Assembly (NCBI GenBank): GCA_018396875.1
Contig: JAGTQG010000004.1
Location: 1 to 62,309, forward strand
DNA: 62,309 nt
Direction of reading: 5' to 3'
From: Candidatus Bathyarchaeota archaeon
GTDB lineage: Archaea; Thermoproteota; Bathyarchaeia; Bathyarchaeales; Bathycorpusculaceae
This document shows, piece after piece, positions 9,835-13,096 of this stretch; position 1 is the first letter of the stretch; each line of letters begins with the position of its first letter. The translations under genes were made by a program, and so were the position numbers. Below the pieces are notes generated by a model. That model was given only the letters and a program-made list of their open reading frames with translations, was not told where the DNA came from and did not search any database.

Positions 9835-10851
9835 TTATGTGTGTTTTGCTAGAGCAAGCCATAAATGGTCGCTCTCTGGACGGGGAAGCACTTCCACAGC
9901 ACCTTTTTTCCTAACCAAAAGGCGCTGGCTTTTAACGGCTAGGAATTCCCCAATCACTGAAGCTCCAATTCCGTTTTTATCCAACTCCTTGACAATCTTT
10001 TCCGTACATTCTGGTCTTGACGCTATAAGCAAAGCCCCAGAACTTATTAGTTGCATGGGATCTATCTCAAAAAAGCTGCAGATTTCAATAGTTTCTTTTG
10101 CAACCGGAATTTTTTCCTCGAAAATTTTAACGCCTAAGTTTGATGCATCAGCCATCTCGTGAACCCCTCCGAAGATGCCGCCCTCAGTTGGATCATGCAT
10201 GGCGTCAACACCGCCGGTTTTGTAGGCTAGAATAGCCTCTTTTACGATACTTATTTTCTCAAAAAACCTTTGCGCCGACCTCAAAAGTCCCTCGTTGAAA
10301 CCGTTTTTAAGGAGCAAGCTGTAACGTTCCGTGGCAAGGATGGCAGTGCCTTCAACTCCAGCGCTTTTTGTCAATATCAACCTATCGCCAGGTTTAGCGC
10401 CTCCGGCAGTTACATAATTCCCTTTGCGGGTTATGCCCATGGCGCAGCCAATGACTATTGGATTGACAAGATTTGGGGTAACTTCGCAGTGACCGCCTAT
10501 AATGGCTATTCCAAGACTTTTGGAAGCTCTGTTCATTTGCGAGCATATGGTTTCAACGATTTGTTCATCAGCGTTTTCTGGCAGGAGAATGCAGGAAGAG
10601 AAAAATGCTGGCTCAACTCCAAAGGTTGCCACGTCGTTGGCATTGACGTTGACGGCAAGCCACCCTATCCGCTCAACGGCCCCTGTTATTGGGTCCATGG
10701 AAACTATCAATGAGTTCCCGTCAATATCTATCACTGCGCCATCAAAGCCAGCAGAAGGGCCCAATGCAACCTCTTTTCGCTTTGCCCCCAAATTTTTGAA
10801 AACTATCCTCTCTAATATCTCAACGGGAACTTTTCCTGGAGGCAATTTCAA
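9835..10851 (-). CDS. AIR-synthase-related protein (PurM/HypE/SelD superfamily)
   Basis: 338 residues with both halves of the PurM fold: an N-terminal ATP-binding domain (VNVNANDVATFGVEP, IIGGHCEVTP) and a C-terminal domain with DPTEGGIFGGVHEMA. The superfamily uses ATP to activate amides, carboxamides or selenide, but the substrate of this archaeal branch is unknown to me. It lacks the PRIC C-terminus seen in true HypE, which is encoded separately at 29.7 kb, so it is not a second HypE. The TTG start has GAGGGA 7 bases upstream. It is 12 bases downstream of the ECF S-component gene and probably co-transcribed with it. Confidence 0.85.
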   Translation of the reverse strand: MKLPPGKVPVEILERIVFKNLGAKRKEVALGPSAGFDGAVIDIDGNSLIVSMDPITGAVERIGWLAVNVNANDVATFGVEPAFFSSCILLPENADEQIVETICSQMNRASKSLGIAIIGGHCEVTPNLVNPIVIGCAMGITRKGNYVTAGGAKPGDRLILTKSAGVEGTAILATERYSLLLKNGFNEGLLRSAQRFFEKISIVKEAILAYKTGGVDAMHDPTEGGIFGGVHEMADASNLGVKIFEEKIPVAKETIEICSFFEIDPMQLISSGALLIASRPECTEKIVKELDKNGIGASVIGEFLAVKSQRLLVRKKGAVEVLPRPESDHLWLALAKHT

Positions 10852-10863
10852 CTTTGGTTCCCT

Positions 10864-11604
10864 CTAGCTTTTAAGTTGTGGCAAGGTGCGCTTAACAACT
10901 TTTACTATGGGTGTTGCTACGGTAAGTCCAATAACCATTTGCCCAATGTTTATGGGAACCTCAGCGAAGGCGAAGACTCCTAGGAAAAACTGTTCATAAA
11001 GAAAGTAGCCAAAAACCATCAACAATCCTCCAAAAATGCATGAAATAATAGCGAAACCGTATTCTGGTTCAGAAAACACTGCCAGAAACGTAACCATCAA
11101 AACTGTGAATGCGCCCACTCCAAACCAGAACTCTGCAGGGATAAAGAGATTTAACGTTGGATTTTCGGTGGAAAAAATGCCAGAGTAAAGTTCGACAAAA
11201 CCGCTGTAGTACAGAAAGCCTACAAGGCTTACAAGCGCACCGACGAGGAGACCCATTTCGATGGTAAAGATTTTCAATTCACGCCTTGTATATGCCTCGA
11301 CGAAAGCTCGCCCCCTTTCATTTAAGAAACCGACAGCAAACCCTTCAAGGGCTTTAATAACGAGCGTCGCTGGAGCATAGTAATAGTAACCGAGGAAGAT
11401 GTCGGCGAGCATAGAGCCCACACCACCAGCAAAAGCGCCTACAAAGGGACCGAAAAGGATTGCTGCCGCATAAACCATTGTTTCGCCAACATTAAAGTAG
11501 CCTCTCGTGCTCGGTACGTAAACCGTAAAACTAATAGTGGCTATACAGACAAGAGCTGTAAAAACGGCGATGACGCTGAACTGCCTCGTAGGATTTCTTC
11601 TCAC
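10864..11604 (-). CDS. ECF-type vitamin transporter S component
   Basis: A 246-residue membrane protein with about six hydrophobic segments. The N-terminal part (FTALVCIATISF, then GYFNVGETMVYAAAILFGPFVGAFAGGVGSM split over helices 2-3) matches the substrate-binding S components of energy-coupling-factor transporters, with the usual polar GE and small-residue helix packing. Such proteins capture a vitamin or cofactor precursor and dock on a shared EcfAAT module, which is not in the window. The GTG start has AAGGAG 9 bases upstream. Substrate is unknown; pairing with an AIR-synthase-like gene hints at a purine- or thiamine-related compound, which is weak inference. I saw no riboswitch upstream. 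Confidence 0.8.
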   Translation of the reverse strand: MRRNPTRQFSVIAVFTALVCIATISFTVYVPSTRGYFNVGETMVYAAAILFGPFVGAFAGGVGSMLADIFLGYYYYAPATLVIKALEGFAVGFLNERGRAFVEAYTRRELKIFTIEMGLLVGALVSLVGFLYYSGFVELYSGIFSTENPTLNLFIPAEFWFGVGAFTVLMVTFLAVFSEPEYGFAIISCIFGGLLMVFGYFLYEQFFLGVFAFAEVPINIGQMVIGLTVATPIVKVVKRTLPQLKS

Positions 11605-11686
11605 ATTCCAGCTCTCCTTGAGGTGTGATAATTATAGTATGGTTGCAGCTTAACTATTTTAGTTTACCATTAAATCGCCCAAAAAC

Positions 11687-13096
11687 TTATAGCAGAACTT
11701 TTAGGTCGTCAAAGGCTTTGAGGACTTTTTTTCCACGCTTCGTGATTTTGAAAAACTTTCGCCCATCCTTCTCGTAGCTTGCAACGAGCCCCCTGCTTGA
11801 AAGCTCGTTTAAATGCTGATAAACAGCTGCCCTCGTCATAACTTTTCCAAGCTCCTTCCACAGTTCATAGCCGTATGCATCCTTTTTGCTCAAAATCCTC
11901 AATATTTTTTCCTTAGTGCTCAGCTCCAAACCAACAACCGCCGTTTTCCTTTTTTTAATCAAGACTTGTAAAACGTCAGTTGCCTTAAGCCCGCTTCCGG
12001 TTATTAAACATACAATATTGTCCGATTTGTCGATGAGCCCTTGATTTGCAAGTTTCTTTACAGCAGCATACGTGGCGGCGCTTGCAGGCTCAGCGAAAAT
12101 TCCTTCAAACTTCGCCATTTCCCTTTCAGCTGAAAAAATTTCCTCGTCAGAAACTGCTACAGCTAAACCTTTGGACTCTTTGATGGCTTTTAGGGCTAAA
12201 ACCCCGTATGCTGGGTCTTTAACTAAAATTGCAAGGGCATGGGTTGAAGGTTTTGTTTTTAGGATTGGCTTGCTTGTCTTCCATAGGTAGGCGTTAACTA
12301 TAGGTGAGCATCCTTCAGCTTGCACGCCCACCATTTTTGGCAGAGTGCCTACTTTGCCAGCCTTTTCAAGCTCCTTGAAACCTTTCCACACAGCGTAAAT
12401 TGTTCCGCCACTACCCATAGAAACTATGAACCAGTCTGGAACACCCATTTGCTCGAAAACTTCGTAGGCGATGGTTTTAAGTGCCTCCAAAGCCAGAGGG
12501 TTCAGTTCAAAAGAACCTTGATACCAACTCGTTTCTTTCGCAATTTCTCCAGCCCTTTTTAAAGATTCGTCGACTAGCTCGCCATACTCCTCTATCACAG
12601 CATCGTAAATGAGCATTTGGGCAAGCTTTCCAACATCCACGTTTTTAGGAACCACGACGTGACAGGCAAGTCCAAACTTTGCACAGTAAGCAGCTAATGA
12701 AGCGCCAAGGTTCCCGTTTGTGGCACAAACAATAGACTTGTATCCTAAGTCTAAGGCGTTGGAAGTAAGAAGCGTTGCACACCTATCCATAAAAGAGTTT
12801 GTAGGGTTTCTGGTTTCATCCTTAAAGTAGAAGTTGGTGAACCCCACGTTCTTGGATATTCTATGAGCCTTATGAAGTGGTGTGCCCCCCTCCCCCATGG
12901 AAACAATATTCTTAACTTCTGGCAAAAATTGCCTGTAGCGCCAAAAAGAAAAACGCTCCGTAAATTTTGCAGCCTTAAACCTTTCATAATCATAGTTGTA
13001 TTCCAATGTGCCCCCACAATTACCGCAGAGAATCCGCGGTGGGAAAGCATCAAACTTTGAACCGCAAGCCACACATTCAAGAAACGCCATTTCCAC
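11687..13096 (-). CDS. Threonine-synthase-like PLP-fold protein lacking the PLP lysine, fused to a C-terminal winged helix
   Basis: 469 residues. Residues 6-30 hold a zinc-ribbon-like CVACGSK...CGNCGG. Residues about 60-385 are a fold-type II PLP enzyme of the threonine synthase family: KDETRNPTNSF, TNGNLGASLAAY, SMGSGGTIYAVWKG and ITGSGLKATD. The family Schiff-base lysine belongs in the SFKDR position, but here the codon at 12788-12790 is ATG, giving NPTNSFMDR (residue 103). Residues about 392-469 form a PadR/ArsR-like winged helix (DAYGYELWKELG, AAVYQHLNELSSRGLV, FFKITKRGKKVL). Loss of the lysine plus a DNA-binding-like domain suggests a sensor or regulator derived from threonine synthase. 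Alternatives are an enzyme with changed chemistry or a local sequence error. The start may also be ATG 13090. Confidence 0.85.
   Translation of the reverse strand: MEMAFLECVACGSKFDAFPPRILCGNCGGTLEYNYDYERFKAAKFTERFSFWRYRQFLPEVKNIVSMGEGGTPLHKAHRISKNVGFTNFYFKDETRNPTNSFMDRCATLLTSNALDLGYKSIVCATNGNLGASLAAYCAKFGLACHVVVPKNVDVGKLAQMLIYDAVIEEYGELVDESLKRAGEIAKETSWYQGSFELNPLALEALKTIAYEVFEQMGVPDWFIVSMGSGGTIYAVWKGFKELEKAGKVGTLPKMVGVQAEGCSPIVNAYLWKTSKPILKTKPSTHALAILVKDPAYGVLALKAIKESKGLAVAVSDEEIFSAEREMAKFEGIFAEPASAATYAAVKKLANQGLIDKSDNIVCLITGSGLKATDVLQVLIKKRKTAVVGLELSTKEKILRILSKKDAYGYELWKELGKVMTRAAVYQHLNELSSRGLVASYEKDGRKFFKITKRGKKVLKAFDDLKVLL

Follow-up and report, generated by a model that had tools for sequence, protein, structure and literature searches.

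Within the window, by which we mean the whole stretch of 62,309 nucleotides of Bathyarchaeota DNA that was analysed, the minus strand carries a gene for a pseudo-threonine-synthase fused to a PadR domain (11687..13096; 469 aa, GTG start, no internal stop), and all other features of the locus discussed below lie on the same strand. The N-terminal part of the protein contains a zinc ribbon with the cysteines C8, C11, C24 and C27 (13016..13075), which are invariant in groups A1/A3. It is followed by a PALP domain, typical of fold-type II PLP enzymes, at residues 65-367 (11996..12904; Pfam E=1.5e-77), which is also recognizable from pocket conservation and fold match, by an interdomain linker at residues 372-391 predicted to be disordered (11924..11983; pLDDT <50) and by a C-terminal winged helix of the PadR type at residues 392-469 (11690..11923), which is present in the structure model and matched by PF03551 over residues 398-460 (E 9.9e-13; 48.3 bits against a gathering cut-off of 27). 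The motifs KDETRNPTNSFMDR, TNGNLGAS and SMGSGGT can be read from the translation. The AlphaFold model (mean pLDDT 88.7) predicts a threonine synthase fold with a separate winged helix, and its top Foldseek matches are all threonine synthases (from B. subtilis, M. tuberculosis, A. aeolicus and T. thermophilus). A preliminary description made from the letters of this DNA had recognized the zinc ribbon and the fold-type II layout, a PadR/ArsR-like helix-turn-helix at the C-terminus and the replacement of the lysine of SFKDR by methionine, and had proposed modelling the fold. The first two are borne out by the motifs, the domain matches and the predicted structure, and codon 103 (12788..12790), at the position of the Schiff-base lysine, is indeed ATG.

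Downstream of the fused gene lies the gene of an ECF transporter S component of the HmpT/PdxU2 (vitamin B6) type, the putative target (10864..11604; PF07155 E 1.3e-30), and then an AIR-synthase/HypE/ThiL-like kinase gene (9835..10851; below all cut-offs), which is probably co-transcribed with the ECF gene. The gap between the fused gene and the ECF gene holds a predicted operator, TAGTTAAGCTGCAACCATACTA (11635..11656; 21.9 bits with a position weight matrix, PWM), abutted by the TATA-like stretch TAAACTAAAA (11657..11666), which was read directly.

Residue 103 and the history of the fused family

Homologues were fetched from 101 relatives, from the class and from the phylum, which gave 124 proteins with both domains. 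Residue 103 is arginine in 74 of them, lysine in 19 and some other, mostly hydrophobic or small, residue in 31. Among the 66 close Bathyarchaeia members, 64 have arginine (mostly AGA/AGG), one has methionine (the window protein) and one serine (a congener, G003), so methionine is true of the window protein and is not the state of its close orthologues. Eight more distant fused members all have arginine, while the 31 far members have leucine (16), isoleucine (7), arginine (2), methionine (2) and, in the rest, valine, phenylalanine, threonine or alanine. All unfused threonine synthases in which the site is present have lysine at the equivalent position; the sole exception among apparently unfused sequences (L107) is a fused gene truncated by a contig end, with arginine. 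The window codon ATG is one base from AGG. A sequencing error at codon 103 was considered and set aside, since independent non-lysine residues occur all through the fused clade and such an error would be irrelevant to the main point.

In a tree inferred from 133 sequences with the motif columns removed, the fused proteins form one clade across Thermoproteota, on one side of a branch, with moderate support (92) for the deepest forks and with some long branches. Two changes between lysine and non-lysine suffice on this tree, a loss near the base and one regain, and the 19 lysine-type proteins make up one nested clade (support 99) whose sister clade has arginine. It appears from the sequences that the loss of lysine went along with the fusion and that one branch has lysine again, a regain that may mark a functional change. 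Homologues with the same helix-turn-helix and a lysine, which according to the preliminary description would make the ATG of the window an error, are thus found in one nested clade; by tree and codons this lysine is specific to its lineage and does not point to an error here. Several of the lysine-type members (L178-L183, L187) are without an ECF gene or operator nearby.

The PLP pocket and the substrate site

Across the window lineage the alignment shows little or no variation at K92, N129, the phosphate loop G228-S-G-G-T232 and S368, the last of which lies just outside the Pfam PALP match. In the Leu/Ile/Met clade the PLP pocket is partly variable (S368, phosphate loop). The stretch N-S-V-N-P-Y-R of A. 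aeolicus threonine synthase aligns with F-E-L-N-P-L-A of the window protein, in which F196, E197 and A202 stand at the positions of N, S and R; we take these positions to include substrate-phosphate ligands of T. thermophilus threonine synthase. A PLP site that has lost both its lysine and the accompanying substrate site suggests a sensor. A lysine-less fold-type II protein, the K41A mutant of O-acetylserine sulfhydrylase (presumably structure entry 1d6s), reportedly holds PLP as an external aldimine.

With threonine synthases (PRK05638/TIGR00260) the window protein shares the fold, the zinc ribbon and most PLP-pocket residues, and PRK05638 aligns with it over its full length, helix-turn-helix included, at 417.6 bits, just under the cut-off of 421; it differs from them in the absent Schiff-base lysine and the replaced substrate-phosphate residues. 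It could still be a PLP enzyme that uses arginine or another residue in place of lysine, as its TIGR00260 thrC score above cut-off and the presence of lysine in one nested clade might be taken to mean. Such a catalytic role is very improbable given that position 103 is occupied by Arg, Leu, Ile, Val, Met, Phe, Thr, Ala or Ser across the clade, and that the window genome has two intact, lysine-bearing ThrC paralogues, both of which pass the cut-off of a threonine synthase equivalog. The preliminary description had proposed looking for a second thrC and had counted the lack of any other against its own reading; with these two paralogues that objection falls away. Judged by its residues, the fused protein would not be a threonine synthase enzyme.

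A palindrome that accompanies the fused gene

A 22-bp palindrome, TAGTATAGTTNNAACTATACTA, of which the predicted operator of the window is a degenerate copy, sits between the regulator gene and the ECF S-component gene. Counted at two mismatches or fewer in the 101 relatives, with the reversed sequence as control, it is present in 43 of the 51 genomes that have the fused gene and in none of the 50 that lack it (p about 1e-20, unadjusted for phylogeny, as the counts ignore shared ancestry), usually as one site per genome; the reversed palindrome gave zero matches in the same 101 relatives. Where a strong ECF homologue is present, the operator is found in 34 of 40 genomes with the regulator and in 0 of 10 without it, and the promoters of nine of these ten ECF genes score below -9. 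The tenth, in G099 (L283), where no fused gene was found, reaches 13.3 bits and looks like an operator relic.

The fused gene is followed by the ECF gene in most relatives; a divergent arrangement of the pair is common in far lineages. The operator stays before the ECF gene also where that gene is distant from the regulator (G064:C66, G062:C56, G098:C2). Operators overlap or abut the TATA region and mostly end 0-40 bp upstream of the start codon, and an A/T-rich stretch equivalent to the TATA-like one of the window precedes operators elsewhere. The window operator, at its 21.9 bits, stands far above the next best site in 62 kb (-1.1) and above shuffled sequences (at most 8.6), and is visible only by weight matrix, the consensus palindrome giving no match in the window at three mismatches. 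The one perfect operator of the window genome lies on contig C18, 10 bp upstream of a second ECF S gene; at this locus (L258:6176-8186, G000:C18) it is followed by a 305-aa ECF S component and then by a true thiL. No ECF gene or operator was found near the regulator in some deep Arg-type lineages (f34, f38, f43 and f65) and in part of the lysine clade; the deep Arg-type members L044, L191 and L193-L196 stand directly behind gatD-gatE-like genes and not beside an ECF gene.

The palindrome was assigned by co-occurrence, its binding is a prediction, and target sites often adjoin the regulator gene without being part of it, all of which would fit a palindrome belonging to some other regulator and a fused protein with a different job. 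We regard this as quite improbable: there is no operator where the fused gene is absent, even with the ECF gene present, the palindrome changes along with the fused clade, and the fused protein has a winged helix of its own.

The ECF S component and vitamin B6

Compared with the PDB, the profile of the ECF family has one credible relative only, 4hzu_S (E 3.3e-22), which is also the top Foldseek match of the ECF protein (target-normalised TM 0.79, against at most 0.65 for other S components). This protein, HmpT/PdxU2, has been reported to carry pyridoxamine, with E41, H84, Q87, Y120, N140 and Q143 as its vitamer-site residues (PMC4860826). Four of the six are shared by the archaeal family, E41, Y120, N140 and Q143 corresponding to E41 (28/32), Y200 (32/32), N219 (31/32) and Q222 (32/32), whereas H84 and Q87 are replaced, conservedly, by K (31/32) and E (32/32), and the archaeal protein is longer (246 aa against 166 aa). 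Riboflavin transport, after which Pfam names the family, was rejected, since among PDB entries the profile matches HmpT but not RibU. An EcfT-family gene is present in the window genome. Many genomes, far lineages (L209, L214, L220 and L225) included, have the AIR-synthase-like kinase gene behind the ECF gene. Because nothing in the window genome passes the cut-off of PF08543, that is, no clear pyridoxal kinase was found, this kinase could be a B6 kinase, which is pure speculation.

Only one route for making PLP de novo has been reported in archaea (PMC9997740), and its synthase is the product of pdxS. PdxS is missing from 96 of the 101 relatives, and in 398 Thermoproteota genomes, counted with phylogeny ignored, the fused gene and pdxS occur together in 9, the fused gene only in 82, pdxS only in 177 and neither in 130. 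All four Arg-type genomes with pdxS among the relatives have the operator in the pdxS promoter, with 28.6 (G071), 23.7 (G074), 20.6 (G089) and 15.9 bits (G058). None of these four loci has a better site, and in the three genomes where the start codon could be placed the operator is not more than 20 bp from it; the other pdxS loci examined had no comparable site. A sister clade has a different operator, TATAAGN4AGCCTATATATAGG, which lies between the regulator and the ECF gene (e.g. L226, L227) or between the regulator and pdxS(T), in G283 and G317 (1 mismatch) and in G131 (3 mismatches). In these three genomes the regulator is divergent from pdxS, and in G283 pdxT comes after pdxS. The two clades, whose predicted operators differ, appear to share their two kinds of target, the ECF gene and pdxS(T), whose B6 identity rests on homology.

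That a different vitamin is controlled, with thiamine or its pyrimidine precursor, or else riboflavin, as the likeliest choice, seems improbable to us. HmpT was first named a hydroxymethylpyrimidine transporter (PMC4860826), Pfam calls the ECF family a riboflavin S component, an AIRS/ThiL-like gene is often found behind the first ECF gene, and the true thiL behind the second one in the window genome hints at some room for thiamine. Against this, the operator is also present at pdxS (four genomes) and that of the sister clade at pdxS(T) (three genomes), the sensor has a PLP fold, and PLP synthase is lacking in most of these genomes.

The ancestry of the protein in threonine synthase might instead have made it a sensor of threonine or phosphohomoserine that controls genes for amino acids of the aspartate family, and in family f9 and L038 the regulator is indeed near a canonical thrC or divergent from it, some of these loci being also near homoserine dehydrogenase and an ACT-domain gene. 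This is unlikely to be its function, as the gaps between thrC and the regulator score -10 to -20, the operator of these same genomes sits before the ECF gene, and the change from N-S-V-N-P-Y-R to F-E-L-N-P-L-A would have removed the phosphate ligands, whose identity we take from family knowledge. Regulation of threonine genes was rejected, the thrC-regulator intergenic regions showing no operator. The divergent placement (L100, L104, L105, L106 and L038, some near hom and an ACT-domain gene, with an operator-less gap) is possibly a trace of the regulator's origin.

A candidate regulator of vitamin B6 supply

We propose, with a probability of about 0.75, that the fused protein is a lysine-less PLP sensor and repressor of vitamin B6 supply, a one-component regulator. 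A copy of threonine synthase would have been fused once to a C-terminal PadR winged helix in the ancestor of these Thermoproteota and would have lost the lysine that ties PLP down. Since the window lineage retains the rest of the pocket, PLP is expected to bind reversibly and without catalysis, either by itself or as an amino-acid aldimine. The winged helix would bind the palindrome, which in target promoters lies across or next to the TATA region, as the co-occurrence of the palindrome with the fused gene suggests. The targets would be the ECF S component, for uptake of a B6 vitamer, and, where present, pdxS(T). Because the operator lies at the TATA region, we favour repression at high PLP levels and derepression when PLP runs low. 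Of the ligands considered in the preliminary description, PLP is preferred, while threonine and homoserine phosphate are disfavoured by the replaced phosphate-ligand residues and by the absence of an operator at thrC; its idea of a sensor that binds DNA, along the lines of the MocR regulators, is well supported by the matching predicted operator and regulon.

In bacteria, pdxST and pdxU are under the control of PdxR, a PLP-responsive regulator of the MocR family, and this family is reported to have no members in Archaea (PMC5320631). PdxR and the fused family have in common a PLP-fold sensor derived from an enzyme and joined to a winged helix, and a regulon of pdxST and B6 transport, known for PdxR (PMC5320631) and predicted from operators for the fused family. 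They differ in fold, type I (aminotransferase) in PdxR and type II here, in the DNA-binding domain, an N-terminal GntR helix-turn-helix in PdxR and a C-terminal PadR domain here, and in the lysine, which is mostly lost in the fused family, unlike in PdxR. With fold type, helix-turn-helix and domain order all different, we propose that the fused family is a functional counterpart of PdxR and not a member of MocR. The usual PadR regulators carry a short helical tail. The fused protein shares with them the winged helix above the PF03551 cut-off and a predicted palindromic operator, and differs from them in that its winged helix is joined to a large sensor domain derived from a metabolic enzyme. 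With moderate confidence we extend this to an archaeal PLP-sensing regulator that arose from a fold-type II enzyme independently of MocR, in which a site that held its cofactor fast would, through the loss of lysine, have become a reversible sensor that may read aldimines of PLP with amino acids, and in which operators were switched while the B6 regulon was kept and one branch regained the lysine.

If so, this would be the first candidate vitamin B6 regulator in archaea known to us and a clear example of how a pseudoenzyme became a transcription factor, in convergence with MocR, and it would give a testable identity to the B6 importer of Bathyarchaeia without PLP synthase. No earlier description of the fused family was found in the open-access literature, which our search covered, subscription literature lying outside it. 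Annotation pipelines likely miscall the family as threonine synthase. As the operator of the window is degenerate and residue 103 is off the family state, the function may be drifting in this species, where activity is less certain than in the relatives. Two other genomes (G061 and G070) each have two fused paralogues, one of the Arg type and one of the Ile type.
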